Of a stretch of DNA of 64,000 bases, positions 5,380 through 46,804 are shown piece after piece (the stretch's first letter is position 1; each line of letters opens with the position of its first letter). Origin of the DNA: Cladocopium goreaui (taxonomy: Eukaryota > Sar > Dinophyceae > Suessiales > Symbiodiniaceae); contig CAMXCT020001679.1 in the NCBI GenBank assembly GCA_947184155.2, positions 32,501-96,500 on the forward strand, written 5' to 3'. The notes under the pieces were generated by a model that was not told the origin of the DNA, searched no databases, and saw only the letters and a list, made by a program, of their open reading frames with translations. The translations under genes and the position numbers were made by a program.

Positions 5380-5399
5380 CTTGCTACGCGTAAGTAGGA

Positions 5400-13179: not shown

Positions 13180-13761
13180 ATGGCCAAGTCTGGATGGACA
13201 GATGAGGATGAGAAGGCTTTGCTTGCTCTTCTTCAGAAGAAGTGGCACAGTGAGAATTCAGGGTCAGGCTATGCAGCCGGATCCAGTATTTTGACTCCTT
13301 TGGAGAGTCAAGGAGCAATGTCAGATGGAAGCAAGCGACTTCGTGAGGCTCTGGATGATGATGAATTCGATTTGATTTCTTCAGCAGCTGAACCTTTGAG
13401 TGCACAGTTGCCTGTCATGCCTATCCCAATCTTTCCTGGGATTGCCGACAAGGTCCTTGATCAGCTTACTGCTGATTTGGTGCCTGAAGGAATGAGTTTT
13501 CGAGATTGGAGCAGAACGAAGTTTGCATTTGGGAAGTTTGCCAATGAAGGCAAAACATACCGTGAGGTATATGTCGATGATGAGATGGCAGGATATTGCA
13601 AATGGAGTATGTGTCACCTGGGAAACAAGAGTACGAGTCCAATTGCAAAGGATTGGTATTCTTTTCTCTGCGCATGCAAGGTTGCGGAGGACTCTGGAAA
13701 GGTTGGAAAGCCAAAGGGTTGCTTCACTGGAACTTCAGTGCAGAGGCAGCTGGGTGATTGA
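13180..13761 (+). CDS. Accessory protein between copia pol and the 3' LTR
   Basis: An intact ORF of 193 codons with a good ATG (GCCATGGCC) lies where some LTR elements carry an extra gene. The N-terminus, GWTDEDEKALLALLQKKW, resembles the first helix of a Myb/SANT-type fold. Residues about 115-170 (FGKFANEGKTYREVY...YCKW...DWYSFLCACK) resemble the short fold seen at the C-terminus of exodeoxyribonuclease-X-like and related dinoflagellate proteins. Both assignments rest on pattern recall. The ORF is undisturbed although gag-pol is broken several times, which could mean it is short enough to have escaped, or is under selection. It may bind DNA. Confidence 0.65.
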   Translation: MAKSGWTDEDEKALLALLQKKWHSENSGSGYAAGSSILTPLESQGAMSDGSKRLREALDDDEFDLISSAAEPLSAQLPVMPIPIFPGIADKVLDQLTADLVPEGMSFRDWSRTKFAFGKFANEGKTYREVYVDDEMAGYCKWSMCHLGNKSTSPIAKDWYSFLCACKVAEDSGKVGKPKGCFTGTSVQRQLGD

Positions 13762-13930
13762 GAATATCTTCATTGGTGCAAAGGCGAGGAAAAGACTATG
13801 AGCTGGTTGTCCATTGGATGGTGGACAACGGGACAATTCGTATCATATGTATTGACCTGTTAAGCTTTAGCGACACGTGCTGAAGTCTGGATGGGTTACA
13901 GCGTATACCTATGGAATGGAGTTCATCTCA

Positions 13931-13938
13931 AAAGGGGG
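13931..13938 (+). promoter_or_regulatory. Copia polypurine tract
   Basis: AAAGGGGG immediately precedes the TGTGAAAA start of the 3' LTR, the expected plus-strand priming site. Confidence 0.85.
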
Positions 13939-14793
13939 TGTGAAAATATGACATCTGTGAGGAGATGTCCGACATCTGTGGTGAGATGAATCCATTTGGT
14001 CTTTTCTGCATTGGAAGAAGTGAATTTGGTTTTCATCTTGATGATGAGCTCAACCGTGATGGTTGACATCGTATTTGCACGTTTCGTGTTTTGCACGTTT
14101 TATTGGAGATGACGAAACCCAACAACGATATACTTTTCGTCTTCTTTGAGTACTTTGATTGCACGGAGAACATCGTGAGGATTTGAATTTGTATAGTAAC
14201 ATGGAAAATCAAACCATTTTCCATATCTTTCACTTTAGTTTTCGTCGACGAAGACCACGAAGTGTACGAAGGAATCGTGAGAAGATCGTAGAATTCATTT
14301 TGTGACTTCGGAAGAAGGAACTTTGTTTGACATTGATCGGAGAAGTTTAGTTTGTTTTGTCTCTCAATGATGATAGCGAGAGCAACGTTCTGAAAGGCAT
14401 TCAGAACTGCAGTTGCTAACAAATCTGAGGGAGACATCATGAATCATGTTTTGGTGCTTGAAATGTTTCAACAGTTTTCAAACACTCAAACTTATTTAAA
14501 CAAACAAACCATGTCTTGATGTAAAGACTTTTTGTGACGACATGTGTTTTTGATCGCTTTTGTGAAAGTTAGCAGAAAGATGCTGACTGGCGACTCCGCA
14601 TCATTTTTGTGTCAAGGCGTGACACACCAACAAGAACCATAGCGACATGAGCAAGATATGTTTCTGTTGCTTGTGTGTAAAAGTGGCTGAGCTCTGGGAG
14701 CGGTTGACTTGGTTGCGTGGACGGTTCTAGTGAGTTAAGGACGACGTCCTGGACGCTGACCCAAGGGTTTCGAAGGTTGCGGTACCTTCTGCA
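13939..14793 (+). repeat. Copia 3' LTR (855 bp)
   Basis: An intact LTR from TGTGAAAA to TTCTGCA. It matches the two separated halves of the 5' LTR but with many substitutions and small indels (for example around 14140 and 14310-14340), so the insertion is not recent. It ends at the TAAAA target duplication. Confidence 0.93.
14353..14440 (+). repeat. Conserved stem-loop block in the LTR
   Basis: Arms AGCAAC/GTTGCT enclose a second stem GTTCTGAA/TTCAGAAC. A closely similar block occurs in the 5' LTR (about 2065-2147) and inside the unrelated LTR element at 37721-37800, where nearly the same stems are kept. Sharing across families suggests a functional RNA or DNA structure or a captured fragment. 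Confidence 0.7.
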
Positions 14794-14798
14794 TAAAA

Positions 14799-15559
14799 GG
14801 TGAAACAGGAGGTGAGGCATGATCTATTGTGAGAAATGACAGCAGTAGCTACGGCATTCAGGGCGCACTCAGAGTCCGCTCAGTAGTTCTTTTCCAAGCA
14901 TCATCATCATTGGGAGCTGTAGGGCACCCTTGCAGTGCATGCAGCTTTCAAGACTGATCCAATGCGATCGAATTAGCGATGATCGCCAGCTCGACAGCAT
15001 TGATGCAGGCTTGCAAGCGTGGAGCCTTCAGCGGTCAACAAATGTATGCGCTGCAGTCAATTGTCTTCGGTGCGATCGGTTGACCATGGTTGCGCCATTC
15101 TTTGGATGACACATAAGATGTCATCATATGGAACTCCCACTGCTGGTTGCAATCCTTTCTCTGTCTTTTTTGGCTGGTTTTTGGTGTTGGTTGTTTGTTT
15201 TGGTTTGTTTGTTCTTTTTTGGTTTGTTTTGTCTATGATGGGATTGCTCACTGGACTTTGTATTGGTCCACTACCAGCTCTTTTGAGACTGCCGACCAAT
15301 TTGACGGCCTTGCAAGCAAATTACAATTCAGCTTTTCTGCTGCGGTTGAACGTGTGTAACGACCTGGCGAAAGCCATGAAGGCGTTGGACGGAAAAAAGG
15401 CTCAGTCACATTGATACAGAGATGCGAGCGTTTTTCCCTGGACAGAGACCAGGTCTGTCATCGAAGTGTTCAGCCGAGGTCCTGGACGGGCAACTTGTGT
15501 TAGCTGTATTGCGGTCCTCTGTCGGGTAGTGTTGTACGCTCGCTTGCATGAGCTGTAGC
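14799..15559 (-). repeat. Left inverted-repeat arm of the helicase unit, interrupted
   Basis: Read on the minus strand, 15559-15403 matches 26606-26765, 15091-14794 matches 26766-27070, and (across the copia insertion) 1636-1599 matches on to about 27110. About 500 bp of arm is thus shared with the right side in inverted orientation. The arm holds the 3' part of the small ORF at 26232, the second small ORF and the first 100 bp of an R retroposon. It is interrupted by the copia element and by a truncated R copy (15092-15398). The inner end at 15559 touches the G-rich direct repeat exactly. Confidence 0.8.
15092..15398 (+). mobile_element. R retroposon, 5'-truncated copy
   Basis: It matches the 3' half of the R copies at 27009 and 27811 and ends with the R tail (CGACCTGGCGAAAGCC ... 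GTTGGACGG) plus A-run. Compared with the right inverted-repeat arm, it replaces only one or two bases, with no clear target duplication. Confidence 0.75.
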
Positions 15560-15606
15560 GGGAGAAAAGGGGAGGGGGGACATAGTAACCACTAATTGTA
15601 TCTAGT
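15560..15606 (+). repeat. G-rich direct repeat, left copy
   Basis: GGGAGAAAAGGGGAGGGGGG is followed by ACATAGTAACC and, 12 bases on, TCTAGTTT. A similar order (GGGAGGAAGGGGGAGGGGGG, GTAACAC, then ATCTAGTT) is at 26152-26215 in the same orientation. The two copies bracket the helicase unit and could be its terminal direct repeats. The G-runs could also form a quadruplex. Confidence 0.55.
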
Positions 15607-16062
15607 TTGACAGGAGAGTCGTACCCACCTGAACTGCGGGATGTAATTCAGCCGCGCCTTGATCAGCTTAACCTTCCCAGCCCACTAAGCGGTCACAGCC
15701 TCCGGCTCCACCGAAGCCAAACAGATGGATGGAACGACCCCAAGAGAAACAGACCGTGCAAGCACCTCAAGAACCTGCTCGACAGGACCCGAAGGGAACT
15801 CAGAAAACCCCGCAGCGGTCGCTGATCAAGAAAGGCAATATATGGAATTGCAAGCAGTTTTTGCCCAAATGAGACAACGAACGATCGCAGAAAGCCGACC
15901 AACATCCCACACAGCCCCAAACACCCACTAGCTTGCCGGCCGCAAGCCCGCAAATTACAGGAGAAGCCGACACCACCGTACCATCTAAATCCAGTACAGA
16001 TACGGCGGCAGCGGCTCAGTTCACCAAGAGAGCCATCGGCCCCCAAGGTCAGTGCACAATCA
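15607..16062 (+). other. 5' part of the unit, broken gag-like reading frames
   Basis: Three short overlapping frames (for example 15725-15931 with an Ala/Gln-rich helix near its end, and an open frame from 15933) cover this stretch. Composition is rich in Pro, Ser and Thr. I suspect one degraded ORF that continued into the next entry, but the frame changes prevent a firm model. Confidence 0.4.
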
Positions 16063-16118
16063 TTGTTCAACCAGAGACCAGCACCACCGTCACCGCCAGC
16101 CACACGTCAACCAGAGAG

Positions 16119-16146
16119 GGATACCCCGGGTACCGGTGCGTTATCC
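16119..16146. repeat. GGTACC-centred hairpin 1
   Basis: CCCCGGGTACCGG lies between GGATA and TATCC, giving a short stem-loop. It shares its centre with the four hairpins that flank the large ORFs (17705, 17816, 26001, 26073). Confidence 0.5.
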
Positions 16147-16407
16147 ACACACTCCCCTCATCCCACAGCGCAAATCAGCAGCAGCCTCCGAAACCGGAGC
16201 AACTTAGTGGACAAGGAGATACCGACAGAGGGATCCACGCCTGTTGACACACCAACCGAATCGCCAGACACGCAAGCTAGTGACACCGTTGTTGCTAGTA
16301 GCTCTGAACCTGCCTGCAAAACCGGCCAGGAGGTTGACCTCTTTGCAGCGGACATTCCTACATTGCAGAACCTGCAGAGAGCAGCCAGTGAGAAAGCGCA
16401 CCACGAA

Positions 16408-17074
16408 CCGTAGCCTCGCTGTCATTTTCACCTTAGATCATGTTTCACTCTCCTGTTTCACTGCGGTAGTTTTTCTCACCACTTTCATTGCGACCCGGCG
16501 TTGTCGGTGTTTGCTTCAAAGTGTCAGGGTGAATGTCATGCCGTGAAGGCTGCTCTTTGTGATCTCGGGGATCCTGGCTGGGGGGATCCCTGGTTTCCGC
16601 ATTGAGCTTTGTTGCTTCCTGCACCCTCCCAAGTGGCCCATGGTTTTTTTTGTGGTTGGTCGTGGTGTTGTTTATTTTTATGGGCCTGCGTCCACATGGC
16701 ACACAAGTTGTCATTTGCATGCGCTGAGATGATATTAAGCTATCACCCCTTGCCTCATTTGATCTTTTTCACCCCATAACTGGTAACTGTCACGTCACTG
16801 CTTGGTGGTTTGTGTTGGTGTTTGTTTTGTTTGTTTGTGTGGGTTTTTGTTTTAGTGTTTTGCTGTTTTGTTTGCTTGTGGTTTGTGTGTTTTTTGCTCC
16901 CAATGATCGTGACAGTTCATAGGACTATGTATAGGTCCTCCACCAGTTTACTTTTGCGGCCACTACAGTATCGGCCTTGCGTGACTTAATTAAACAATTA
17001 ATCCCAAATGCAACATGCTTTGAAACATGTTGAACGACCTGGCGAAAGCCATACGGCGTTGGACGGGAAAAAAA
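16408..17074 (+). mobile_element. R1: short non-LTR retroposon with an 18-bp target duplication
   Basis: GAGAAAGCGCACCACGAA occurs on both sides (16390-16407 and 17075-17092). The 667-bp insert starts CCGTAGCC, has a palindromic GGGATCC...GGATCCC block near 16568-16590 and T/G-rich middle parts, and ends with the R tail and an A-run. No coding capacity, so it depends on another element's machinery (LINE-type target-primed reverse transcription is implied by the tail and long duplication). Confidence 0.88.
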
Positions 17075-17704
17075 GAGAAAGCGCACCACGAAACGCGACT
17101 AGCCAGTGCCCGTCAGAACCTATGGCGTATCACGAAACACCTCAAGACAATACAAGATGGCCAGGAACCAGATACTCCTCAGGCTTCGCCGATCGTAGAT
17201 GTAGAAATGGAAATCATTGATTGAGTGAACTTGCAGCCACCTAGCACGGAGTGCATATGACTGCTCTGAGATCACCCGATCAGTGCCGGCTTATGTTGTC
17301 GCCATACTCCACAGTTGCGCCAAGAGAAAAGCAGTTGAGTGCCAGGGTGTTACCCCCCAAAACTTGTTGGACTTTTAGGGGCTTACCAACTCAATATGAC
17401 CCCCCCAAAGTAGTGTAAGGGGATTTCTATTGGTGTACGTCACTTGTTTGGTCTTGTCAGGCTTGTGTCCCATGTCCTTCCGTCTCCGGTCATTTGAATC
17501 CTCCTTTCGTTGGTGCTGATGCATTGTTAGTGAAGAATGCTTCCAACATCTGTAATTGTATAATGTGTTTCTCACTGCAGCTTTTGCGGCTCTACTAGTT
17601 TCTATAGCTAGATCAGCCATAAGCCACGCAATTCGCATCTCAAGGCGATAGATAAGCTTCAATCTGTGTTTTTAAAACTCCACTTGAATTGGCCCTGCAA
17701 CGAG

Positions 17705-17738
17705 AACCCCCGACCCCGGGTACCGGGTGTTCGGGGTT
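17705..17738. repeat. GGTACC-centred hairpin 2
   Basis: AACCCCCGACCCCGGGTACC is followed by its near-complement, giving a strong GC-rich stem with a GGTACC centre. Confidence 0.75.
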
Positions 17739-17815
17739 TCCCTAGCTCCGCTGATTCATTGGTAACATTTGAACCCTACCGCCTTGATAGTCTTTCACAG
17801 TCTTAGTTGTACACT

Positions 17816-17850
17816 GGGAACCTGACACCGGGTACCGGTTGTTCAGGGTT
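17816..17850. repeat. GGTACC-centred hairpin 3
   Basis: AACCTGACACCGGGTACC is followed by GGTTGTTCAGGGTT, an imperfect inverted copy. It ends about 15 bases before the ATG at 17865, so it could act on translation or on a nucleoprotein complex. Confidence 0.7.
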
Positions 17851-17864
17851 ACGCCCACGCCAGA

Positions 17865-19367
17865 ATGATACAGCAGCTCATGACAGCAAATAGATTCATT
17901 TCCTTGGCGACGGATGACCCTGACGACTCGGATACAGACATAGAGCCAACGGTGCCATGCATCACAGAAAAAACCCGCGAGGATGCGTCAGCTGACAGTG
18001 ACCAATCGATCTACTTCGATGCTCTAGAGGCTGATGATGACACTCCCTACTTCCTACAAGGAACTGAGCCTCCCCCAAGAGAGGAGTGGGAAATTGCCGC
18101 GCCCATTGACTTCTCCGATGTCCAGGGCATCCTGCGAATAAGCCACCAACTGGACGAACTCTTCCTGTCGGAGAAAGAGATTGAAACCCCACTTGGTATG
18201 GATGACATTAAGCAGAATTGGAAGTGGGCAGACGTAGGCTCCCGTCGAATGCCTCGAGCACCCCTGACATACCCAACAGTGATGGTGGACGACGGGAATG
18301 GAATCCGCCGCCCCGTAGCCAGCCAGGTCCATCACAGGACACTCTTCCAGTGGATTGTAGACAACCTCTCATGGGTATCGCGGTATGACACTGTCTATGT
18401 CTTTGTGGACAACCGCACGCTGTCAGGAACTAATCCTCCTGACTACTGGCAGTATTTTGCACCATGGACCAAAGGCAGATGTGCAGTCACTGGACCTTAC
18501 CGAGAAAAAACAACTGCTATCCACATTCCCATCAACGCTAATACAGGTTTGCATCAGGTCCATTATACCTGGGTTGGTGCTGCGGTCCTAGAGGCTCTGT
18601 GCTTAGTCTTTCCCACTGTGAACTTTGCACTCACGGACTCTGATTGTGTGCCCACCTCGCTCTTTGAGATAGCCGAACTGGTCAATCTCATGACAGATAA
18701 GGCGAGCAGAGCCGAGGCAATGCAGCACTATACTATGGCCAGTTCCAGCCAATGCCCGCCGGCAGTCCTGCTCACAACCGAAGCAAAAGCAGAACTCAAT
18801 GCTGGATTGATTATAGTTACAGGACATGCTCCGACCTGCGCAACAGATGTCGATATGGACCAGGAAACCCCAGATGCTAGCATGCCACCAAGCGATGCCG
18901 CCGGCTCCACTGCGAGTGATGCGCGTGCCCTTAAAGCAAGACGAATAGTCCATCCAGCCAACAGCAGATCGGCGGACGAATGGGTCATCGCACTTTGCAA
19001 CAGTCGAGCCAATTTCCTAGCCACCACAGCTGTGCCAGAAGACCCTGCGGAAGCGATAAGAGGTGGACTAGTTCTTACCCCTTTACTTGGATGTAAGGCC
19101 AGAACCCCACTAGACTGGACACATGCCTGGGCAATGCTAGGTGAATGGGCTGGAATCATTGCATTCCCTACCCCTGAGCAAGGAGAATGGCCGCGTCACG
19201 GAGATGGTCGCTACTTACGGCCGGATTTGTCCAGCGAACCCCGCCCTTCCTCACATGGGCCCGTCCCATCTTCGAACAGGGAGCACTCTCCCCCATGTCT
19301 GTCTTCCCGGCCAACTTCCCCATACTCTGCCTCCCGGGGGACAAGCTATTCCAAAGCAAGGAGTTAG
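17865..19367 (+). CDS. Unit ORF A: large protein with a DxD (GT-A-like) motif
   Basis: ATG at 17865, 500 codons. Residues 1-90 are acidic and probably disordered. From about 90 to 420 the protein looks folded. The block AVLEALCLVFPTVNFALTDSDC has a DSD at 258-260 after a hydrophobic strand, the arrangement of a metal/nucleotide-sugar DxD site in GT-A glycosyltransferases, followed by LFEIAELV. I call this GT-A-like only tentatively. The last 55 residues (from about 19200) look frame-shifted, because the following frame (19187-19558) reads as better protein. Functional partner proteins are likely the next two ORFs on the same strand. Confidence 0.65.
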   Translation: MIQQLMTANRFISLATDDPDDSDTDIEPTVPCITEKTREDASADSDQSIYFDALEADDDTPYFLQGTEPPPREEWEIAAPIDFSDVQGILRISHQLDELFLSEKEIETPLGMDDIKQNWKWADVGSRRMPRAPLTYPTVMVDDGNGIRRPVASQVHHRTLFQWIVDNLSWVSRYDTVYVFVDNRTLSGTNPPDYWQYFAPWTKGRCAVTGPYREKTTAIHIPINANTGLHQVHYTWVGAAVLEALCLVFPTVNFALTDSDCVPTSLFEIAELVNLMTDKASRAEAMQHYTMASSSQCPPAVLLTTEAKAELNAGLIIVTGHAPTCATDVDMDQETPDASMPPSDAAGSTASDARALKARRIVHPANSRSADEWVIALCNSRANFLATTAVPEDPAEAIRGGLVLTPLLGCKARTPLDWTHAWAMLGEWAGIIAFPTPEQGEWPRHGDGRYLRPDLSSEPRPSSHGPVPSSNREHSPPCLSSRPTSPYSASRGTSYSKARS

Positions 19368-19558
19368 ATAATGGGTACAGCCTTCCACCCGTAGTACATG
19401 CCTTCCATGGGAGCAAAGTCGGCCTCGGACAAAAGCTCCAACAGTGGCAAAGTAAAGGGCTGCAACCACTTGCCGTTTCGCTCATAGGGGTTGACGAGGC
19501 ACCCCGCTATGGACACACCCCACAGGCTGCGATTTCGTCAGAGGAAGTAAATTGGTAG
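19187..19558 (+). CDS. C-terminal continuation of ORF A in another frame
   Basis: This 123-codon frame has a balanced composition and looks folded (SVFPANFPILCLPGDKLFQ and GYSLPPVVHAFHGSKVG). It overlaps the poor-quality tail of ORF A and ends just inside the start of the next frame, which is itself open upstream of 19552. I infer that ORFs A and B were once one frame, now broken by two indels near 19190-19215 and 19500-19558. Introns or programmed shifts cannot be ruled out. Confidence 0.55.
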   Translation: MAASRRWSLLTAGFVQRTPPFLTWARPIFEQGALSPMSVFPANFPILCLPGDKLFQSKELDNGYSLPPVVHAFHGSKVGLGQKLQQWQSKGLQPLAVSLIGVDEAPRYGHTPQAAISSEEVNW

Positions 19559-21549
19559 CAAAACCACACGTCGGACGACAGCGCAGCCTTACCAAGACGC
19601 AAGTATTGCTGCTCCAAAGCCTTTGGACGCCAGTGGAAGTCCCTAATTACAACAACGACCACACACCCTGGCCCCAGACCTGCCAGACCGCCCACGTCCT
19701 CTGCGGACAGCAAGCTAGCCTCCAACTGCCCACTGCCCAGATCCTCCCTCTTCTTGAGGCACTGCAAAAACGACTAGGAATTGACCCTAGCAATGCAGAA
19801 CTGGCCATTAACGAAGTTCTTGCCAGCCATGCCGATCCTCAATACACTGATTGGAAGATCATTATCATGGATAACACTACCTGGCAACTCAATCCCACTG
19901 ACCCAGGGTCCCTGGATGTTCAGTGCACTGGATTGGGTGGAGGAGAACTCGACGAAGAGTGGGATGTACTGCTAGCTTGCAGAAAGGAAGCACATGTTTA
20001 CGGACCATCTCTCAGCAAGCAGGATGATTGGAATGCGAGAGCTGGCACAATTGCAGGAACCGCCCACACACAAGAATACTTGTTACTGCATATAGCCATG
20101 TTCCCAATTGGTGCCCACACCTGGTGCCATGTTCTCGGAGTGCCCGACGCCCACCAACTGCAAGCACAGATCATCAGCCGTGCCATGAAACTCCTACGTT
20201 TCTGTCCCATCACCCCGGCGCACAGGAAACCACCATGGCCAGGGTACAAGCACGGCCTGCGACTCTTTACCAAACTGCTGGTTGCGCATCCATTGGTCGG
20301 AGTGTGCCTGCCCCCCGAAATCCGTTCTGTGGAGTATCTCAAATTAACAGGTTACATGGTAGGCTCCCTCTTCATTCGAGGGCACAGTGCAGGCTCGTAT
20401 GCAGGAATGGTATGGGAAACCATCCTTGCTGAATTCCCAGACATTGAAGGCAAAACAGTTCTAGCAGCCATTGCTCTGCCGCCATCGCTCCTAACGACAC
20501 ACAGACTGTCCCATCACCGACAGGTACACCTCATCCACCATGCAGATGATCGACTGTGCGTCTGGAACCCGTCCAATCAAGACATGAGGCTGCTCCAACA
20601 ACAGGGGTTCACAATCACACACATCACAGGGTGGCGAGTATACCTAGGCACTGCCCAACACAACTACCCGCACTGGACACGAGTTACCCTTCCAGAGGGA
20701 CGACAGGACATAGTACAGTTGGAGAGTACCCCAGGGGTGCTTCCCTTTGAAGTCTACTCACAAGCCCCCCTGCGGTTGATATCATGGTGCAGCTTTGAAC
20801 TCCCACAGGCAGCTAAGCGTCTCCTTCGTGAGTTAGCAATGATGTGCGAGTTGCCAGAGACCACAACCCAGGCACTAGTCAGCCATATTGCCATACACAA
20901 CTCACAGGTACGAACGGAGCAAGATGCAACTCAATATTTGGCCTCATTGGCGACAGTCAGCATTGCGTCCAGGGCCAAATTGCTCACTTATACAACCATG
21001 GTTCAACACTTCCTTGGCACCCTACAACTGCCTATGGCTGTCTACATGCTAGACTACTATCTGCCAATGCTCAGCCCCAATGAAGGCTACAATGAGACGG
21101 GGCTTACAATGCAGAGTGCTGGACCAATTCGTGAACCATGGCAACCAATTGCATTCGAATTTCTTTTCAAAGGCAGTGAGTTTGGTCACTGGAGAGTTAA
21201 AGGAGGACAGGATGCATTCGCGTTCCGACACCCGAGCCTAGGCCAAACAGAAGTCTTCAGCCTCCTGGCAAGTGAGGCACACCACCACAAAGTTAGCCCC
21301 ATAGGCACGGGAAGACTTGTTGCAATGGTAGGAACCACAGATGCTCCAGCGAGCGACGTCAGAAACCTGCAAATCCTTTTTGGGCTAGTCCTTGCCATCA
21401 CGCCACGCTCATCCAAAAGTAAGGATGAACTGCCTGCCACCCGAATACACAGGCAGTGCAACCCCAGATCCATTGAAGTAGCTTTTCTCTCAGGGCCAGC
21501 CATCGACTTCTTTGCCCAAGAACAACTCCTGGTACTTCAAGACTGGTAG
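19552..21549 (+). CDS. Unit ORF B: protein with an alpha/beta-hydrolase domain
   Basis: 665 codons counted from a TTG; the frame is open further upstream, so the true start is not here. Around residues 245-380 it shows an alpha/beta-hydrolase core: the nucleophile elbow GHSAGS with Ser279 after a strand (VGSLFIR), an acid candidate at Asp332/Asp333 after LIHH, and His370 or His374 in AQHNYPHW. Spacing and order fit a Ser-Asp-His triad, so an esterase, lipase or peptidase activity is plausible. The remaining parts are unrecognised. The frame ends at a TAG (21547-21549) and continues in the same phase into the helicase ORF, so B and C probably formed one polyprotein. Confidence 0.72.
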   Translation: MVAKPHVGRQRSLTKTQVLLLQSLWTPVEVPNYNNDHTPWPQTCQTAHVLCGQQASLQLPTAQILPLLEALQKRLGIDPSNAELAINEVLASHADPQYTDWKIIIMDNTTWQLNPTDPGSLDVQCTGLGGGELDEEWDVLLACRKEAHVYGPSLSKQDDWNARAGTIAGTAHTQEYLLLHIAMFPIGAHTWCHVLGVPDAHQLQAQIISRAMKLLRFCPITPAHRKPPWPGYKHGLRLFTKLLVAHPLVGVCLPPEIRSVEYLKLTGYMVGSLFIRGHSAGSYAGMVWETILAEFPDIEGKTVLAAIALPPSLLTTHRLSHHRQVHLIHHADDRLCVWNPSNQDMRLLQQQGFTITHITGWRVYLGTAQHNYPHWTRVTLPEGRQDIVQLESTPGVLPFEVYSQAPLRLISWCSFELPQAAKRLLRELAMMCELPETTTQALVSHIAIHNSQVRTEQDATQYLASLATVSIASRAKLLTYTTMVQHFLGTLQLPMAVYMLDYYLPMLSPNEGYNETGLTMQSAGPIREPWQPIAFEFLFKGSEFGHWRVKGGQDAFAFRHPSLGQTEVFSLLASEAHHHKVSPIGTGRLVAMVGTTDAPASDVRNLQILFGLVLAITPRSSKSKDELPATRIHRQCNPRSIEVAFLSGPAIDFFAQEQLLVLQDW

Positions 21550-21636
21550 CTTGCCTCTGGCCAAAGCCTGGAACCCATCGATGCTACCGTTCAGGGGGAC
21601 GGAGGCCCACTCCCAGGCACCTTTTTCCTCCATACT

Positions 21637-24600
21637 ATGTGGATGTTTGGATGCACCAAGCCCACCAGAGAGGTAACTGCTGTCGCGCAGACTCCCCCCT
21701 GCAGGTACCACCTTGGCCTAGGCATCTATAATGTCCAAACAGCAGTTGAAGGAATGGATGGCAACAAACGATCACACTTGCTACATTTGTGCGGGCAGTT
21801 GCTACGCCTGGTCCTTATCCCATGTCATGTGGAGGGCGAACCCCATCAATGGACCCACACAACTGCACTTTCCTTCGCTGCCGAACTAGACGGACATGTC
21901 TTGGGCACGCTATGTGCAGTGACAATGGCGTTACTCACCAATCGGCTAGACCTGTGTATTCAAGGACTCTTTGGTGCAGGCAAGTCAAAATCGATGGCAG
22001 TCCTCATCCTTGCCTTGATTGAAATCGACACCACTGACAGCCTTAAGATATTGTTTATATGTAAGGAAAACTCAGGCACTCGATCCTTTGCTGACCTGCT
22101 CCTATGGCTCGACCCCCCGTCGGGGGTGTTTGGGCGCATAGGTAGGTTGGTGGGGGACCAAGAACGTAACAAGAGCAGTTATTCCCATACCAGATTCGAT
22201 ATTCATCCGAGAGAAAGAAGGCAAATGCTGAACAAGTGCCAGCTAGTGTTGGCTACAGGGGGTACGGTAGCTCAGGATCTCACCATGCAATGGTCCACGC
22301 TAGGAGGCTTCATGCAAGAGCTTTCCCTCATGGTCATTGATGAAGGTCAACAATATGGCACTGACCGGGAAATTGCAGTCATCAGCCTGATGAGGCAACA
22401 ACCCCTAGTCCTGTGGACGGGAGATTCAGAGCAGACGCCAGGAGGCATTGATCGTGCAGCCCGTAACGCTAAACGATCCCGACAACTCCTCTTATCCAAA
22501 AAACATGGGCTGCGAAGTGACCGAAATTATTATATGCCAGCCAATTTAGCAGATGCAATGATCCGGCTATTGGACGGCTCATCCAATGAAGGTCTAACTA
22601 CCCTCAGCCAAATCCTCCGTCGAGGCCAGCACACGTTCAGTCAGCTATGGACAAGCCAACTCTCGCCACAAGCTACCGAAGACCTAAAGGCGGCCAATGC
22701 TGTCCTTCCAGGCCTGAGAGCACAATTTCAAGCAGCCCAGCCACATGAGCAAAGACAACCCCCCACATTCGTGGACGCAGAACTACTGGCAGGCACAACA
22801 GTCAACTTTCCACGGTCCCTGGTGCGCCTTGCCTGGATGTTGCAGCATGCCGCTACCCTCCTACCCATGGCCGGTGACATACAAGCGGTTTTAAACTCTC
22901 AGACCGCCGGAGTGAGCGACATCCATGCCTGGGGATTGATGCTCCCGTCTAGCTCAAGAGTTAGTCCTGTGACATACCATTCAGTAGTAGCAGTTAGATA
23001 CCCTGATCTCTGCAGACTCATCAACGACATGTGGGAACTGGGAAGTTTTGCCTCCGGAGGACTTCCAGACCGGCCACCGGGGTTCCAGTTCGTGCTTTGG
23101 GACACCAATGCTAGAATTAATGGGCTAGTAGCGACAGACTTAGAGACGCTCGTGTCAGAGGTGCTTTCCCCCTTCCCCAGGAATGCCGGATTTGCCGATG
23201 GGCTGTTCGTAATGACCACTGCAACAGATCACAAGAATAACTTGAACCGTTCAGTGCTTAAGAAGGATTATGCCCGCACTCTCCGTGTTGAAACAATAGC
23301 CAACTCAGCAGGAGGAACAGCACAAGTAGCAATCGTAGCCCAGCCCAGTATTGGATTCCTGAACACGAAATACTACTCCAATGGTTCCCCTACGGAGGAT
23401 ACGGAAGACTGCCTTGGCCGAATCACTGTCGGACTCACCCGTTCAAAATCCTTGACCCTGTTGGTCTCCCCGTTAGACATGATGGGGCTTATGGGCATGG
23501 CTCAGGTGGTCGCGACCATAGCATATGGCATCCGGGGCCTTCGAAGAGGGGAGACGACATGGGAATGGCCTGACTTCGATGCCAACCCAGAACAGGAGAA
23601 TCTTGCACAGATGAGTAGATGGTCGCTGAATTCAACACCCGCATGGGAATTCCCTCCCCTCGCAATCGCCAACCAATACCAGGACCAGCAAACCAACGAG
23701 GTGAAGCGAGCGAGATACCGTCTGATATTGGTTCGAGGGTCAGATCTTGGCTGGCTGAACAGAGATCGCCTCCAAGAAGTCAAGACAGGCCTAGCAGTTC
23801 AACATAAATGGATTCCTGTTCAGAATCTCCCGTTCGCGGAAGTTGTCCTGTATGCCTATGCGGCTGATCGCACACCCTTTCCCACATATGTATGCCTGCC
23901 TTCAGGATTGTACAAGGCGCGTACTGGGCAAGTTGTGGCGCAGACCGGCCCAGATCAGGAAATCCTGCCTTTGTCAGGTATCTACTTCTTTGATGGATGG
24001 CGGGTACACCCAACGCTACCAATCCCCGGCCACCTGCCACGCACTAAAGAAGCGCCAGTCCAAGATATCGCTCTGACTGCACCTGCACCTGGTACAGAAC
24101 CTACTCGGTCGCCGGAGGAAGAAGCGAGAGACATCCTTGCTACAGCTGCTAAGAATCAGGCCGAAGATGGGCCAAACACAAGGAGGGCAGCAGTCCGCGC
24201 ATGCAAGTACTTAAGGGCTATGGTCAACCAATATGAGTCCACCATACAAGAAGTGCACAAGGCGGCCCGCATCCACACACAAATGAGCAAGGGCACAGCA
24301 GGGGCAACTGCAGATTATCGACCCCAAGGAGGGGCGCTTCCAGTAATATCCCCAGAACTAACTTCAGAGTTACTGCATTGCTTATCCACGCTACCCGACC
24401 CATGGCCCCTGGCTAAGATCACGATCGATATGGAGAAACCAAGCCAGTGGGTTTCCAAATTGTGCCGACTCTACTTTGCTGACGAATATGCCAGGCGAAC
24501 AGTCGGACTGCCCTCGCCTACACATGTCCCAGACATTGAGGCAGCGCTCCAGGCGGTCCAGAAAACCCTCCCAAAGCTCGAAGCAAGGATGATTGAATTT

Positions 24601-25992
24601 TTGGCCGAATGGTTAGTCACCTTTCTGATACCAGCAACGCACGTATTGGAAGTGAGGGCACCTCATCTTTCCTTTATGTTGCTCAAAGAATACTGGTTTA
24701 GAGAACTATACCTCGGCCTAAAAGTCACAGCATCGTTTGACCGCTCCGAATCATACACGCGAGTCATAGATGGTCAAGTGAGATGCATCACTCCTGAAAT
24801 TAAGCCGCAGAACCTGCAGGTCATCTGGAACGTTCAGTTTATCACTGTTTTTGTGCCGGCATGGATGATCCCTCCTGTCTACCACAGCCTGCGCAGGGAA
24901 AGCATCAAGAACGCAAGTTCCGCCAGTGCAATAGGTGTCCAGTCGGTCCGCCCCACCTGGTTTGAAGACATCGCAGTACCAAAAGAGACCGCGCCTCAAC
25001 CAAACCAAGAGCAGCCCCAACCGCTACACGGTCTTAAATTAGTCATCAAGGAAGAGGTGCTACCGATGAAAGACCAACCGGAATTCCCAGCACTTGCATT
25101 ACTGGCCGCGCGTGGTTTGCTCGCACCAGATACATGGAAGTGCAAACGTGCGCAGGTCAGCCTCAAGGCAACAATTGATGTCCCTATGCTAGGCACAATC
25201 ATCGAGCAAAATGGTGATGGACTTCTAGAAGACTCCCACATGCCAGTGGGATGGCCACTGCACATCGATGGTGCCGTTAGGCAATGTTGTATTCACCGAT
25301 CTGCGACCCACCAAGAACTTGATGACATGCTGAAAGAATATGACATGAAAAGAGATTCAGTTGAAATAAACCATGACGCACCCCAATGGTCTCACAACGC
25401 AGTATGGAACAGAAGGTATATGGAACCGAAGACAGGATACACGCTGCGGCAACTCTGGGCTGATTCCGAGCCAGCCATTGGGCAGAAATCTTCCCCTTCT
25501 TATGACATCAAAGAGGGTGACATTTTACGTGCAGTAGCTGCTATCACAAACCTGCCGTCTTCCACGCTGCCTGACAGTCCCTTCATCCGTGCATTGGGGA
25601 CACCAGCAGCTCAAAAGGCCCCACCACAAACTGGCACCCTGGCGCAAAGAGCACTGGAGGAATGGGAACGCACCCTGTGTGAAAACAAGGCGGTGGCAAT
25701 TCTTGCACAGATGCAAGCCGGCCGGCCGGCCCTCATCCAGAAAGATGGCGGAGAAATGCTCATTGCCATTGTCCTTGACAGGCCACTGGCGGAAGCGAAG
25801 GCACTAGTGGACGACCCTGCAGCTTTCACTCGCGAAATGACTAGGATCCTGATTGCAAAGCAAAGCCATCCACTTATCGCGCAAATGATTAAACCAGCAG
25901 GAAATGGTGACCCACCCCCCGCAAATAGCACAGCCAGTGGCACCGGCAGCCACGAACACCCCAGCGCCAGTCAGCCCGTGCAGTTCCAGTAG
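21637..25992 (+). CDS. Unit ORF C: UPF1-like superfamily 1 helicase, 1451 codons
   Basis: The frame is open from just after the TAG at 21547 to 25992. Helicase motifs in order: Walker A GLFGAGKS at 110-117, motif II VIDEGQQ (D235, E236, Q238), motif III WTGDSEQ (262-266), and motif VI GRITVGLTRSKS (R595, R602). The DE-x-QQ and GLTRSK forms are closest to UPF1-type SF1 helicases, not to the Pif1 type of Helitrons. About 800 further residues after the helicase are unrecognised, with a Pro/Glu-rich linker near 820-850. No RT, RdRp, Rep or transposase motif is seen. The ORF is intact over 4.3 kb, much longer than the other broken frames nearby. Confidence 0.88.
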   Translation: MWMFGCTKPTREVTAVAQTPPCRYHLGLGIYNVQTAVEGMDGNKRSHLLHLCGQLLRLVLIPCHVEGEPHQWTHTTALSFAAELDGHVLGTLCAVTMALLTNRLDLCIQGLFGAGKSKSMAVLILALIEIDTTDSLKILFICKENSGTRSFADLLLWLDPPSGVFGRIGRLVGDQERNKSSYSHTRFDIHPRERRQMLNKCQLVLATGGTVAQDLTMQWSTLGGFMQELSLMVIDEGQQYGTDREIAVISLMRQQPLVLWTGDSEQTPGGIDRAARNAKRSRQLLLSKKHGLRSDRNYYMPANLADAMIRLLDGSSNEGLTTLSQILRRGQHTFSQLWTSQLSPQATEDLKAANAVLPGLRAQFQAAQPHEQRQPPTFVDAELLAGTTVNFPRSLVRLAWMLQHAATLLPMAGDIQAVLNSQTAGVSDIHAWGLMLPSSSRVSPVTYHSVVAVRYPDLCRLINDMWELGSFASGGLPDRPPGFQFVLWDTNARINGLVATDLETLVSEVLSPFPRNAGFADGLFVMTTATDHKNNLNRSVLKKDYARTLRVETIANSAGGTAQVAIVAQPSIGFLNTKYYSNGSPTEDTEDCLGRITVGLTRSKSLTLLVSPLDMMGLMGMAQVVATIAYGIRGLRRGETTWEWPDFDANPEQENLAQMSRWSLNSTPAWEFPPLAIANQYQDQQTNEVKRARYRLILVRGSDLGWLNRDRLQEVKTGLAVQHKWIPVQNLPFAEVVLYAYAADRTPFPTYVCLPSGLYKARTGQVVAQTGPDQEILPLSGIYFFDGWRVHPTLPIPGHLPRTKEAPVQDIALTAPAPGTEPTRSPEEEARDILATAAKNQAEDGPNTRRAAVRACKYLRAMVNQYESTIQEVHKAARIHTQMSKGTAGATADYRPQGGALPVISPELTSELLHCLSTLPDPWPLAKITIDMEKPSQWVSKLCRLYFADEYARRTVGLPSPTHVPDIEAALQAVQKTLPKLEARMIEFLAEWLVTFLIPATHVLEVRAPHLSFMLLKEYWFRELYLGLKVTASFDRSESYTRVIDGQVRCITPEIKPQNLQVIWNVQFITVFVPAWMIPPVYHSLRRESIKNASSASAIGVQSVRPTWFEDIAVPKETAPQPNQEQPQPLHGLKLVIKEEVLPMKDQPEFPALALLAARGLLAPDTWKCKRAQVSLKATIDVPMLGTIIEQNGDGLLEDSHMPVGWPLHIDGAVRQCCIHRSATHQELDDMLKEYDMKRDSVEINHDAPQWSHNAVWNRRYMEPKTGYTLRQLWADSEPAIGQKSSPSYDIKEGDILRAVAAITNLPSSTLPDSPFIRALGTPAAQKAPPQTGTLAQRALEEWERTLCENKAVAILAQMQAGRPALIQKDGGEMLIAIVLDRPLAEAKALVDDPAAFTREMTRILIAKQSHPLIAQMIKPAGNGDPPPANSTASGTGSHEHPSASQPVQFQ

Positions 25993-26000
25993 TCTCATGC

Positions 26001-26027
26001 GGCCAACGTGGGGTACCCACGGTTGCC
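26001..26027. repeat. GGTACC-centred hairpin 4
   Basis: GGCCAACGTGGGGTACCCAC followed by GGTTGCC forms a near-perfect stem, starting 9 bases after the helicase stop codon. Confidence 0.75.
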
Positions 26028-26072
26028 ACACATAACAGGGAACCACTGTGCAGACAGGTGTAGATAGGTGCT

Positions 26073-26098
26073 GTCACCATGGGGTACCCATGGTTGAC
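26073..26098. repeat. GGTACC-centred hairpin 5
   Basis: GTCACCATGGGGTACCCATG followed by GTTGAC is a near-perfect palindrome. Together with hairpin 4 it mirrors the pair upstream of ORF A. Confidence 0.75.
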
Positions 26099-26151
26099 TC
26101 CTGCTTTGTGAAGCTGACGAGGTGGCAAGCTTGCCTTTGTAACTATGGTAA

Positions 26152-26215
26152 GGGAGGAAGGGGGAGGGGGGCAATTGTAACACTTTTAATAGGCCACTAC
26201 ATATATATCTAGTTA
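26152..26215 (+). repeat. G-rich direct repeat, right copy
   Basis: It matches the order of elements at 15560-15606 in the same orientation (G-rich tract, GTAAC, ATCTAGTT) with a few extra bases. Confidence 0.55.
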
Positions 26216-26231
26216 CTGGTAGCGTAGGACG

Positions 26232-26759
26232 ATGTCAAAGTACATCAAGCCATGGCGCCCGTCGCTGTTTTGCTCAGCACAATCCAGTACCTTCACTGCT
26301 CGAATGCCGCCTGGCCATATGAGTACAGCGCAACCGAGTGAATTGGCATGCCTGCTTCAAGAACCCCAGAGTCACAATGAGGCACAGGATCTCCTCCTTT
26401 TGCAGGACTATGTTTGCAGACTGACGCACACCCTCAGAACACTGGAAGACACCCATGCCTTATTGCAACAAACAGAACTCCTTGCAGGCGTTATCAACGA
26501 GCAAGATTGCAGAGACATTCGCACAGCCTGCTGTTGCATAAGGAGTCTGCGCATTCGTGTAGAGGCCCGTGCCAATGTTACAGAACGTGAAGTTATAAGT
26601 CGACAGCTACAGCTCATGCAAGCGAGCTTACAACATTACCCGACAGAGGACCTCAACACAGCTGACACAAGTTGCCTGTCCAGAACCTCGGCTGAACACT
26701 TTGATGATAGACCTGGTCCCTGTTCAGAGGAAAACGCTCGCATTCCTGTATCAATGTGA
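26232..26759 (+). CDS. Small helical protein, ORF D
   Basis: ATG at 26232, 175 codons. Residues about 45-140 form a strongly helical, Leu/Arg/Glu-rich stretch (LLLLQDYVCRLTHTLRTLED, later SLRIRVEARANV), suggesting a coiled-coil bundle. The same helical segment is repeated as a fragment at 27609-27810, and the C-terminal part is repeated inverted in the left arm (15403-15559). Not recognised as a known family. The multiple copies suggest it belongs to a mobile element. Confidence 0.55.
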   Translation: MSKYIKPWRPSLFCSAQSSTFTARMPPGHMSTAQPSELACLLQEPQSHNEAQDLLLLQDYVCRLTHTLRTLEDTHALLQQTELLAGVINEQDCRDIRTACCCIRSLRIRVEARANVTEREVISRQLQLMQASLQHYPTEDLNTADTSCLSRTSAEHFDDRPGPCSEENARIPVSM

Positions 26760-27110
26760 CTAAGCCAGCTACCATGGCCAACCGACCGCATCAAATGCAA
26801 TTGGTTGCAACACCTGCTAAGTTGACCGCTCGAGCAGCTCTACGCTTGCAAGCCTGCATCAATGCTGTCGAGCTAGCGATCATCGCTAACTCGATCGCAT
26901 TGGATTCAGTTTTGAAAGCGGTATGCACCGCAAGAGTGCACTACAGCTCCCAATGATGATGATGCTTGGAAAAGAACAACTGAGCGGACTCTGAGTGTGC
27001 CCTGAGTGCCGTAGCTATTGCTGTCATTTTCACCTTAGATCTTGTTTCACCTTCCTGTTTCACCCTTTTTTCGTTTCTCACCACTCTCGTTGCGACCCGG
27101 CGTTGTCGGT
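26606..27110 (+). repeat. Right inverted-repeat arm of the helicase unit
   Basis: Inverted counterpart of the left arm (15559-15403, 15091-14794, 1636-1599). It begins inside ORF D, includes the small ORF at 26774, and runs into the first 100 bp of the R2 retroposon. Confidence 0.8.
26774..26956 (+). CDS. Small helical protein, ORF E
   Basis: ATG at 26774 (ACCATGGCC context), 60 codons. It follows the ORF D stop by 14 bases. The product is mostly one amphipathic helix region (AALRLQACINAVELAIIANSIALDSVLKAV). It lies inside the inverted repeat, and its left copy is partly degraded. Function unknown. Confidence 0.4.
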   Translation: MANRPHQMQLVATPAKLTARAALRLQACINAVELAIIANSIALDSVLKAVCTARVHYSSQ

Positions 27111-27608
27111 GTTTGCTTCGAAGTGCCTGGGTGTAATGTCATGCCTGAACGGCTGCTCTTTGTGATCTCGGGGATCCTGGCTGGGGGGATCCCTGGTTTC
27201 CGCATGGAGCTTTGTTGCTTCTCTCACCCACCAACGTGGCCCTTTGGTGTGTTTTGTGTTTGTTCTGTTTTGTTTCTTGTTTTGGGCCATTCTCAGAATG
27301 ACACACAAGATGTCATCATGCATGTAATTCCCATTGCTGGTTGCGATCCCACTTCTCTCTGTCGTTTTTGTTTGGCTTTTGTTTTGGTTGTGTGTTTTTC
27401 CTGTTTTTGCTTTGTTGTTTTTGGTTTGCTTTCTTGTCTGTTCTCTTGCTGGGACAGTTTCTGGACTGCGTACTGGTCCACAACCGGCACTTTTGTGGCT
27501 TTCGACAAATTGACAGCCCTGCATGTAAACTACAATTCACCTGTTTGCCGCGATTGAATGTGTGTAACGACCTGGCGGAAGCCATGAAGGCGTTGGACGG
27601 GAAAAAAA
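27009..27608 (+). mobile_element. R2: R retroposon, near full length
   Basis: It starts CCGTAGCT, shares the GGGATCC...GGATCCC block, the ACACAAGATGTCATCATGCA block and the R tail with A-run, about 600 bp. The same boundary between ORF E flank and R start is found in the left inverted arm, so R was already joined to this sequence before the inverted copies arose. No clear target duplication. Confidence 0.75.
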
Positions 27609-27810
27609 GCAATAAGGCACAAGATCTCCTACGCTTGCAAGAATATGTTTGCAAACTGACGCACACCCAAAGGACACTGGAAGACACCTATGCCTTGTTG
27701 CAACAAACAGAAGGTCCTTGCAGGCGTAAGACAAGATTGCAGAGCCATACGCACGGCTTGCTGTTCCCTAAACAGTCTGCGCATCCGTGTAGAGGCCCGG
27801 GCCAATGTAA
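27609..27810 (+). pseudogene. ORF D fragment between R2 and R3
   Basis: It encodes a close variant of ORF D residues 47-117 (AQDLLRLQEYVCKLTHTQRT..., later SLRIRVEARANV) with a frameshift in the middle near 27715. Confidence 0.7.
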
Positions 27811-28563
27811 CCGCAGCTACTGCTGTCTCTTCTCACACTAGATCATGTCTCACCTCCTGTTTCACCGTTTATTCGTTTTTCACCACTCTCGTTGCGACCC
27901 GGCGTTTTCGGTGTTTGTTTCGAAGTGCCAGGGTGAATGTCATGCCTGAACAGGCGACCCGATGGCTCAGTTGGTATGGCGTTGGTCTTGCCAGCGCTGA
28001 CAGACTGCCGGTGGTGGTTCGAATCCCTGCTGGTCCACTCGGGAGTCTCAAGTGCGACCCGCCGAAAGGCAACGGGCGCCGACCACAAAAAAAGGTGAAT
28101 GTCATGCCTGAACGGCTGCTCTCTGTGATCTCGGGGATCCTGGCTGGGGGGATCCCTGGCTTCCGTTTGAGCTGTGTTGCTTTTCACCCTCTTACCTGGC
28201 CCCTTTTTGTGTTTCTGTGTTTTCTCTGTTTTGCTTCTTTTTCGGTGGCCATTCTCATAATGACACACAAGATGTCATCATGCATGTTATTCCCATTGCT
28301 GGTAGCGATCCCACCCCTCTGTGTTCTGTTTGGTTTGGTTTGGTTGTGGTTGTGTGTTTTTTTGTTTGTTTGTTTCTTTTTTGGTTTGGTTTGATTTTGA
28401 TGGGATTGCTCACTGGACTGTGTATTGGTCCATTGCCAGCGCTTTTGAGGCTATCGACGAAATGACGGCCTTGCATGCCAATTTACAATTCATCTTTTTT
28501 GCTGCGGTTGAACGTGTGTAACGACCTGGCGAAAGCCATGAAGGTGTTGGACGGAAAAAAAAA
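27811..28563 (+). mobile_element. R3: R retroposon carrying a SINE insertion
   Basis: It starts CCGCAGCTACTGCTGTC and ends with the R tail and a run of A. Without the SINE and one target copy it is about 591 bp, matching R2. R copies with the same start point support a defined full-length family of about 0.6 kb. Confidence 0.82.
27952..28093 (+). mobile_element. tRNA-derived SINE with a 20-bp target duplication
   Basis: GGTGAATGTCATGCCTGAAC flanks it exactly (27932-27951 and 28094-28113). The head is tRNA-like with a pol III A box TGGCTCAGTTGG (27963-27974) and a B box GGTTCGAATCC (28016-28026). A short tRNA-unrelated body and an A-run follow. Length 142 bp. The perfect duplication implies a recent insertion into R3. 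Confidence 0.93.
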
Positions 28564-28589: not shown

Positions 28590-30472
28590 AATTTCTTCTC
28601 ACGATTTGATTTGAAGATGAATGCGAGACCCTGACTCTACTTGGTGTTGAACCTCAATCTTTGTTGGATCTTGGACTGTTGGTAGTTGATGAGAGCGGTG
28701 ATGTTGTATTTGGACAGGAAGAATTTGGTGTGACAGGTTTGCGATGAGATTCCTGAGTCCAAACTTTCGAGCTCTTCAAATCCAATGGTCTTACGCCAGA
28801 CGATGGAGGACAGCAGATTGAAATACCCGAAGTTGAACCTGGTGAGGAAATCCAAGCTCCAGAAGTTGAACTTCAAGCAGAACAGGAAATGTTGGTTATC
28901 AATGATGATTTGGTGGTGACACCCAGTTCCACCATGCAGCTCTTGCGTGATGCTTGCAGGTGGCTTGGTGTATGTGTCATTCGAACAAAAGCTGTCAGAA
29001 AGATCAACAATCAATGGGATGCTGAACTTATCCTTGGTCTTACTGATGGACCTTTGGACTTCTTCGGACACAAACCAGCGGTGAGAGCCAAACAGAAATT
29101 CATCGCTTTGAAGATCGATGAGGAAGCTGAAGCAGTTCGTGACCAAGTTCTTTCAGATGGGTACTCTGTTTCAGAAGCTCTTGACGCTGGTGATGTTGCT
29201 CAACAACATAGTTTGGCACAGGTGAATGCTTGGGAGAACGTTGGATTGGATGATGTTTCGGATACAGATGGACAACAAGTGATGTTTGAGCAAGGTGGGG
29301 CTGTGTCACCAAGCATGTTGAAAGCCCCAGTCACTCGGTCCTGTTGCAGACAGTGATGAAGATGTGGAGATTCCATCTGGTTCTTGCAAACATCCCTCCA
29401 GCACTCCTTTGAATGACGAGCGTGCCAAGATGCAAAAGATGGGTGACGATCCAGCTATTATCCCAAGAGCAAAGTGCCAAGTTTGAGAGCAAAGTGAATC
29501 AAGTGGCAGACATTGAGATTTGTCACAACGATGAGATGGATGAGTTCACAGGTGATTTGGAGAATTGTTTTCAATATCCTGACCTTGAGGATGAATACAT
29601 AGCACAACATGGTGAAGGAGAAGGCCCACCAGACGTGAGCCAAGAGCTTGATGAACGCGCAATCCTTGATGAGCTTGAGAAGTTACGCATGGAGGTCATC
29701 AGACCTGTTACCCTTTCTCCAGAAGAGACTGCAAAAGAAAACACAGTGGATACAACGTTGGTATTTGACTGGCGTTTCAGAGGCAATGCTTGGATCAGAA
29801 GGTGCCGAGTAGTGGCTCGAGAATAAAACTTCAGCCACTGATGAAAACAACTTTGCCCCTACATCAGCCTTTCTGCGAGGATGTTGCTGGTCTTTGCGTT
29901 GATTTACAACCTCTCGGTGACTTCACTTGACATTTCGGATGCATTTTTGATGGTGCCTCAAACAGATGAGATGTATGTTGAGATTTCTCAAGGTAAATCT
30001 GAGACTCATTGGCGTTTGCTTCGTTGTCTTCCAGGCCAACGAAATGGAGCATTAAAATGGCATCAACACTTTGCATCCATTTGTGAAAGCGCAGGATTGG
30101 TACCATTCCCTGGATCACCAACAGTGATGCGACACAAACAAGTTTGTCTTTGTGAACGTCCATGTGGACGACATTCTCCTAGCTGTTTGCCAGGTGATGT
30201 AGAATGGTCCAAAAGCACAATTGGAGCCACATTGAAGATGAAAGTCGATGGGCCCCATTTGCCGGCCAGTGAAGAGCAACTCATGTAGTTGAAAAAGAGG
30301 ATCACTATGAGAGGATGGAATCCTCATACAGCCAAATGCAATGTATGTTCCAAAGCTGGTTTCAATGATGAAGGTGAGCGCAAGACGCAAGAAGGGCCTC
30401 CCATACCATGCAACATTGGAGCTTACAGTGCTGGCAGCACTGAAACACCTGACTTCCCATCTTGATGGGACG
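28590..30472 (+). pseudogene. Copia element 2: decayed integrase-RT linker and RT
   Basis: Broken frames in order encode an acidic linker (28610-29340), another linker segment (29413-29750) that ends in an RT start with LVFDWRFRG and RRCRVVARE (to 29826), the RT core LDISDAFLMVPQ (29881 onward), and after a frameshift near 30130 a HVDDILLA-type catalytic box. Stops and shifts occur about every 400 bp. The sequence stops at 30472 where the large LTR element is inserted, and the RNase H continues at 42975. Confidence 0.85.
30468..30472. repeat. Target duplication GGACG, left copy
   Basis: GGACG recurs at 42970-42974 after the 3' LTR. Joining the flanks restores copia 2 between RT and RNase H. 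Confidence 0.88.
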
Positions 30473-40855: not shown

Positions 40856-41014
<159 letters not shown>

Positions 41015-41388: not shown

Positions 41389-41390
41389 TG

Positions 41391-46745: not shown

Positions 46746-46804
46746 ATGTTAACTATTACAAAAATAAAACTGGATAGCGACAGATTACCTGTTGGCGGCT
46801 GGGG

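Follow-up and report, generated by a model that had tools for sequence, protein, structure and literature searches.

LINEs are normally compact. APE-type LINEs with RNase H encode endonuclease (EN), reverse transcriptase (RT) and RNase H in one ORF, end in poly(A), and leave 5'-truncated copies and SINE families that have the tail in common with them. Helitrons are large helicase-bearing elements of another kind, with a Pif1-type helicase and Rep, and with neither RT nor poly(A). Accessory enzymes are already known from LINEs. The SymbioLINE-Dnmt elements of dinoflagellates are reported to carry an accessory DNA methyltransferase under purifying selection, located in ORF1 upstream of the RT (PMC5890265). 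In insect TRAS/R1 and Jockey LINEs the accessory domain is an SF1 RNA helicase described as originating from plus-RNA viruses (PMC6338049). Terminons, giant Penelope-like elements of rotifers, reach up to 40 kb and combine an RT with accessory enzymes including GDSL esterases; they are reported to be without endonuclease, to end in telomeric repeats and to have many 5'-truncated copies (PMC6431247).

The locus described here lies in a stretch of 64,000 nucleotides, which was analysed as a whole and is called the window. It contains three large ORFs on one strand, A, B and C. We consider it very likely that they belong to an inactive copy of a giant APE-type LINE, estimated at about 22.8 kb, of which 5' truncation has left the 3' part (15609-27608). 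The element resembles the APE-type LINEs with RNase H in all the features given above, and its domain order is I/R1-like. It differs from them in its size of about 22.8 kb and in having a multi-enzyme polyprotein of about 2,735 aa, a middle ORF, an additional ORF (D) and a domain that follows RNase H. With SymbioLINE-Dnmt it has in common that a dinoflagellate LINE carries an accessory enzyme under purifying selection, but here the helicase, glycosyltransferase (GT)-like and hydrolase-like parts are downstream of the RT when the element is read from ORF2 on. An SF1 helicase as accessory domain is also reported for the insect LINEs, whereas the motifs of the giant LINE look UPF1-like and belong to a separate polyprotein with further domains. 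It is, like the Terminons, a giant retroelement with RT, accessory enzymes and many truncated copies; in contrast to them it has an APE endonuclease and plain poly(A) ends inside contigs without telomeric repeats, and the Terminon/Penelope-like reading was rejected. A literature search, mostly of open-access texts, found no LINE of such size or with such a polyprotein, and the size together with the A-B-C polyprotein would be the new part.

The preliminary description of this DNA, made from the sequence alone, had delimited an unclassified unit without RT at 15560-26215. Other copies set the bounds at 15609-27608, and the fuller ones encode endonuclease, RT and RNase H upstream on the same strand. 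The absence of RT holds for the window copy, because it is 5'-truncated, but not for the element. The features of the locus are as follows.

14795..15608, minus strand: left flank, not an element end
14795-15559, minus strand: inverted fragment of the LINE 3' region, from repeat comparison
15094-15398: 305-bp 5'-truncated SINE-like insertion within the inverted LINE fragment
15560-15608, minus strand: further rearranged scrap in the left flank
15609..27608, plus strand: giant LINE copy, 3' part, decayed, with one SINE-like insertion inside, from homology to other copies
15609..16407, resuming at 17075-17224, plus strand: end part of the middle ORF (N/E; P/S/Q-rich), 5'-truncated and interrupted by the SINE-like insertion; the frame is uninterrupted in copies free of it
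16408..17074, plus strand: SINE-like insertion sharing the LINE 3' tail, absent from L002-L005, L007 and L008
16390-16407 and 17075-17092, plus strand: perfect 18-bp target-site duplication GAGAAAGCGCACCACGAA of the SINE-like insertion
17865..19229, plus strand: A, GT-A-like part of the polyprotein (DxD 258-260, later NAG 312-314), from relatives and motifs
17865-19367, plus strand: full reach of the A ORF, but with its end part in a shifted frame
19495..21546, plus strand: B, hydrolase-like part (GHSAGS Ser298, Asp352, His389/393), from motifs; then TAG at 21547-21549
21550..25989, plus strand: C, SF1 (UPF1-like) helicase by its motifs at residues 142, 264, 291, 587 and 627
within 21550..25989, plus strand: C-terminal part of C, about 800 aa, no assigned domain
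26232..26756, plus strand: ORF D, 175 aa, kept across subfamilies, without known domain
26760..27608, plus strand: 3' UTR and poly(A) tail
27006-27608, plus strand: part of the LINE tail that coincides with the body of the SINE-like family
27811..28562, plus strand: further tail/SINE-like copy, from repeat comparison
27951-28093: small insertion between 20-bp direct repeats, inside the tail/SINE-like copy 27811..28562

The ORFs are present at 17865-19367, 19552-21549 and 21637-25992, as first reported, and B and C indeed share one phase, interrupted by one TAG (stop to stop, B spans 19495-21549 and C 21550-25992). The polyprotein suggested from this arrangement is borne out and includes A, since relatives such as P0017 (1,999 aa) and P0024 (2,236 aa) have A, a linker of about 90 aa, B and C in this order in one frame. 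In the window copy, A and B are separated by two frame changes and B and C by the TAG, so it is a decayed copy. The longest A-B-C frame has about 2,740 aa, and that of contig C1040 has 2,735 aa.

A search of about 5.8 billion predicted proteins gave 113 relatives for C and 140 for A (120 of these listed), in both cases scored among the 8,000 candidates sharing most words, and single database clusters related to C have up to 2,345 members. In the 1.17-Gb genome of the window (G000), C was scored at 32 of 5,706 first-look candidate places, which are unverified as copies. There is no stop in the match at 27 of the 32 places, and at nine the frame extends to 2,600 aa or more, eight of them stop-free. 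The unit is thus a repeated element, as opposed to a set of unrelated single-copy host genes, and the host-gene reading is excluded. The 21-nt dinoflagellate spliced leader has 172 exact copies in this genome (0 for the reversed control), and a dinoflagellate genome is supported by these copies. No relict of it was found in the window with up to 3 mismatches, nor any 14-base piece in 71 loci.

The motifs pointed out for A, B and C are all at their places and conserved, with gapped rows set aside in the counts that follow. In A, the DxD aspartates are conserved in 94 of 95 (D258) and 91 of 94 (D260) relatives, and N312 of the later NAG in 86 of 90; a DxD with a later NAG is a pattern known from GT-A enzymes. 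The serine of GHSAGS in B, initially numbered 279, is residue 298 counted from 19495 and is conserved in 57 of 58 relatives, D352 in 63 of 64 and H389 in 66 of 68, so that Ser, Asp and His come in hydrolase order. At the level of motifs, A thus appears GT-A-like and B alpha/beta-hydrolase-like. No Pfam GT-A or alpha/beta-hydrolase family reaches the cut-off for A, B or their relatives, and there is one weak Glyco_transf_34 match (E 0.076) among 25 relatives of A. C has the motifs GAGKS, DEGQQ, GDSEQ, AGGTA and GLTRSK, all conserved in relatives (K145 in 82/83, D264 in 83/83, R631 in 65/67). Walker A, the DE box, motif III (GDxxQ) and the TR of motif VI are all present, and support the predicted assignment of C to the SF1 helicases. 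The wording of the motifs resembles that of UPF1-like SF1 helicases, and single relatives of C match AAA_19 (6e-5), AAA_30 (3e-4) and DEAD (6.5e-5). For the window ORFs themselves, searches against Pfam, NCBIfam and PHROGs gave almost nothing (DEAD on C at E 0.0013, below the cut-off) and no transposase. PDB sequence and profile searches with A, B, C and ORF2 gave nothing useful; a Prp8 match at E 0.35 was taken as chance. A, B, C and their relatives have no Rep or Pif1 match in the profile searches, in line with the lack of a Helitron Rep signal noted earlier. The giant LINE shares with Helitrons that it is large and bears a helicase but shows none of these signals, and a Helitron was rejected.

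Five copies (L002-L005 and L007) match the window from 15609 on and have no left arm in the preceding 1.5 kb, while L006 has a match of only 105 bp to this arm, by way of a SINE-like copy. The sequence upstream of 15609 is common to all six loci shown; homology to other copies begins at this position because the window copy stops there. At the right end, 16 out of 18 copies finish at the poly(A) at 27608 with a GGCGTTGGACGG-A(n) tail, and the other two (L018, L019) end before it. Beyond 27608 the flanks are as a rule unrelated, but those of L020 and L022 consist of a further family fragment. In G000, a 35-base stretch of the tail has 592 exact occurrences, against 0 for its reversed control. 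Copy starts are scattered over many places, i.e. the 5' truncation is variable, and there are no LTRs. The exact tail, the poly(A) and the continuation upstream are features of poly(A)-type retroposition.

Target-site duplications were found for one of six LINE copies (20 bp) and one of six SINE-like copies (18 bp). The LINE copy, L015, has its start at 25340 and lies within an older copy of the tail, with the 20-bp duplication on either side. When its flanks are joined, they give a continuous alignment with the uninterrupted tail of the window over 601 aligned positions (81%), by which the empty site is restored. L016, L023, L024, L027 and L028, which have both ends in view, show no target-site duplication (best chance match 7 bases), and neither do the five other SINE-like copies. 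Several right-end matches that start near 26217 were considered as a fixed truncation point or a spliced transcript; this was rejected, as short stretches from 8 of these matches reveal two other subfamilies whose upstream sequence is related. As a separate observation, three truncated copies (L016, L027, L028) start nearly together at 26066-26078, beside the palindrome CCATGGGGTACCCATGG, perhaps an RT stop.

Upstream of 15609, other copies contain a small ORF (L033:9227-9979) and, farther up, a long one. The C-terminal part of the latter, ORF2, has the RNase H-like motifs FDGSC, AEIMACL, QGDILPV and ANGIADDLAG, in a region with profile matches below the cut-off (RVT_3 E 0.016, RNase_H E 0.1). 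The end of ORF2 (L043:1-2130) includes, after RNase H, a conserved extra domain with VWLHDGFLVAPPPP / VWLHDGFLVAPPPPEHM, which has no Pfam match. In the copy on C506, an RT precedes the RNase H part (RVT_1 E 2.7e-14, above the cut-off) and is itself preceded by an endonuclease remnant (L071). The RT has 209 relatives, and PF00078 occurs together with the endonuclease family PF03372 in 7 of the 120 listed. Among 1,143 candidates in G000, 67 RT places were scored; 64 of these match without a stop, and at 21 the frame reaches 2,060 aa or more, the maximum being 2,097. ORF2 thus has about 2,095 aa, with an APE-type endonuclease, RT, RNase H and the extra C-terminal domain. The gene order of the fuller copies, a composite across copies, is ORF2, middle ORF (N/E), A-B-C polyprotein, ORF D and poly(A) tail.

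Several observations connect EN-RT with A-B-C. In the protein P0059, the endonuclease of the LINE (81% to P0302, 76% to P0254) is fused to residues 358-684 of B and 1-365 of C, and in P0244 its RT (91% to C506) is fused to residues 244-337 of C; these fusions look like two different internal deletions inside one unit. The copies C938 and C5799 share a stretch of 8,452 bp at 97% identity, which begins below ORF2 and reaches the end of B; in C938 the end of ORF2 lies upstream of this stretch. The region 15609-15800 recurs at 15 further places, distributed over 14 contigs, and seven of these contigs are also among the at least 40 ORF2-end matches listed. In six of the seven (C938, C506, C24, C1920, C94, C14) the ORF2 end is upstream on the same strand, about 4.3-13.3 kb away, and in the seventh (C32) it is about 60 kb off on the other strand. 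The lists of RT places (67) and C places (32) have four contigs in common (C1040, C3402, C1495, C1299). In all four the RT is upstream of C on the same strand, at start-to-start distances of 15.1, 15.4, 17.3 and 24.2 kb, and by simple arithmetic about 0.02 RT-C pairs within 25 kb would be expected by chance. On C6058 an ORF2-end match and a C match are on opposite strands; the arrangement there and on C32 (for the 15609 region) is wrong, and therefore the two parts are separate copies on these contigs. EN-RT and A-B-C would accordingly form one transposing unit, as a composite across several copies.

On C1040 both the ORF2 frame (2,094 aa) and the A-B-C frame (2,735 aa) are open, and 19,495 bp separate the start of the RT query from the end of C. 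To this are added about 1,650 bp for the upstream part of ORF2, derived with the help of its length, and the 1,619 bp that lie between C and the poly(A) in the window. The resulting estimate of the full length is about 22.8 kb without the 5' UTR, by arithmetic on coordinates of different copies.

A-B-C might instead be a large non-autonomous retroposon, with a borrowed 3' tail and dependent on a separate LINE for its movement, and with EN-RT nearby through nesting or in a different subfamily. A SINE-like family with the same tail does exist, and at 28 of the 32 listed C places no RT place was found on the same contig; this absence means little, because it was judged only among the places listed. 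The agreement in order and strand on the four RT/C contigs and on six of the seven contigs with the 15609 region, the two different in-frame fusions of EN or RT to B-C or C, and the 8,452-bp identity between C938 and C5799 from below ORF2 to the end of B all speak against such a retroposon, which we regard as very unlikely.

Inverted repeats, one of 161 bp (90%) and one of about 300 bp (86%), also flank the ORFs, so that the unit could be imagined as a DNA transposon, about 12 kb in length and bounded by long terminal inverted repeats at 14795-15559 and 26606-27068. In independent copies these repeats (14795-15559 versus 27068-26606) are not ends and were rejected as such: the left arm is absent from L002-L005 and L007, copies continue upstream of 15609, and the 3' end is at the poly(A), 540 bp past the right arm. 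With no transposase found either, we give this reading practically no weight. Somewhat less far-fetched, though still extremely improbable, is a retroposed RNA virus or virus-like replicon, the DNA copy having been made by host LINEs. A long polyprotein with an SF1 helicase and a poly(A) end would fit it, and insect LINEs are reported to contain SF1 helicases that stem from viruses (PMC6338049). Against it, no RdRp was found, A-B-C is linked to an RT ORF of its own, and neither viral contigs (searched by peptide patterns) nor phages gave a match, both collections being poor in protist RNA viruses. An old viral origin of single A-B-C domains is possible. Returning to the giant LINE, the window copy is 5'-truncated, SINE-interrupted and decayed.

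Selection was assessed from differences at codon positions 1/2/3. In the C tail (15 rows), changes found in at least 3 rows are distributed 10/5/51 and rare ones 38/28/82. For ORF D (20 rows) the shared changes are 5/9/15 and the rare ones 21/19/34, a moderate selection signal; in the 3' UTR (20 rows) the corresponding numbers are 25/12/21 and 45/38/48. When the window is compared with C5799, A differs by 9/9/23, B by 13/6/34 and C by 17/17/93; with C938 the numbers are 9/13/30, 12/10/39 and 42/42/108, respectively. The middle ORF shows a weak bias (11/9/13 and 11/7/20), and dN/dS in the ORF2 end is 0.08-0.28 in 21 pairs of seven frames, one of which (L053) has one stop. A, B and C are under purifying selection; from the codon-position bias, they were kept while the family multiplied.

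The following mechanism is proposed. A long mRNA would be bound by the ORF2 protein, the endonuclease would nick the target and the RT would copy from the tail, i.e. by target-primed reverse transcription. Most cDNAs would stop early and give 5'-truncated copies such as the one in the window, and the SINE-like family would use the LINE tail. The most likely role of the helicase is to remove RNA or RNA-DNA structure, allowing a cDNA of more than 20 kb to be completed; it would thereby assist reverse transcription or second-strand synthesis. For the GT-like and hydrolase-like parts, the least certain step, a probable role is the modification of nucleic acid or proteins, belonging to either the element or the host. 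Dinoflagellate DNA reportedly contains 5-hydroxymethyluracil (PMC11071213), and because of this base a nucleic-acid glycosyltransferase would be thinkable. The more specific proposal would be a LINE lineage of more than 20 kb that needs a 2.7-kaa polyprotein for retrotransposition, where the helicase completes the cDNA and the GT-A-like domain glycosylates nucleic acid, e.g. 5-hydroxymethyluracil, marking or shielding the element. In this full form we consider it unlikely.

If a LINE of about 22.8 kb maintains a multi-enzyme polyprotein under selection, this would extend both the known size and the known cargo of target-primed retrotransposition, and would offer a natural system to ask how an RT completes so long a cDNA. 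The element also explains an abundant, unannotated protein family, that of the large clusters related to C.

Some further observations concern repeats and rearrangements. The small insertion at 27951-28093 has a tRNA-like look, and its 20-bp direct repeats are GGTGAATGTCATGCCTGAAC; ARAGORN finds no tRNA in the surrounding region 27800-28300, and no Rfam family is found anywhere in the window. In the copy on C938 (L040/L041) a 521-bp segment matching 24476-24996 of the window is inverted in place. A Copia-like LTR retroelement at 5061-14794, with 302-bp LTRs that are 99.3% identical, adjoins the left arm, and in L016 a related LTR end adjoins the truncated LINE copy at 26075. The direct repeat of 1.58 kb at 30472-32021 and 41390-42969 (97.9% identical, 10.9 kb apart) is probably another LTR element. 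At 38389-40856 a unit of about 1.07 kb is repeated in tandem about three times, with about 99% identity, and a large imperfect palindrome of AAATCATC/GATGATTT arrays, with 359-nt arms of 96% identity, is located at 46804-48447.
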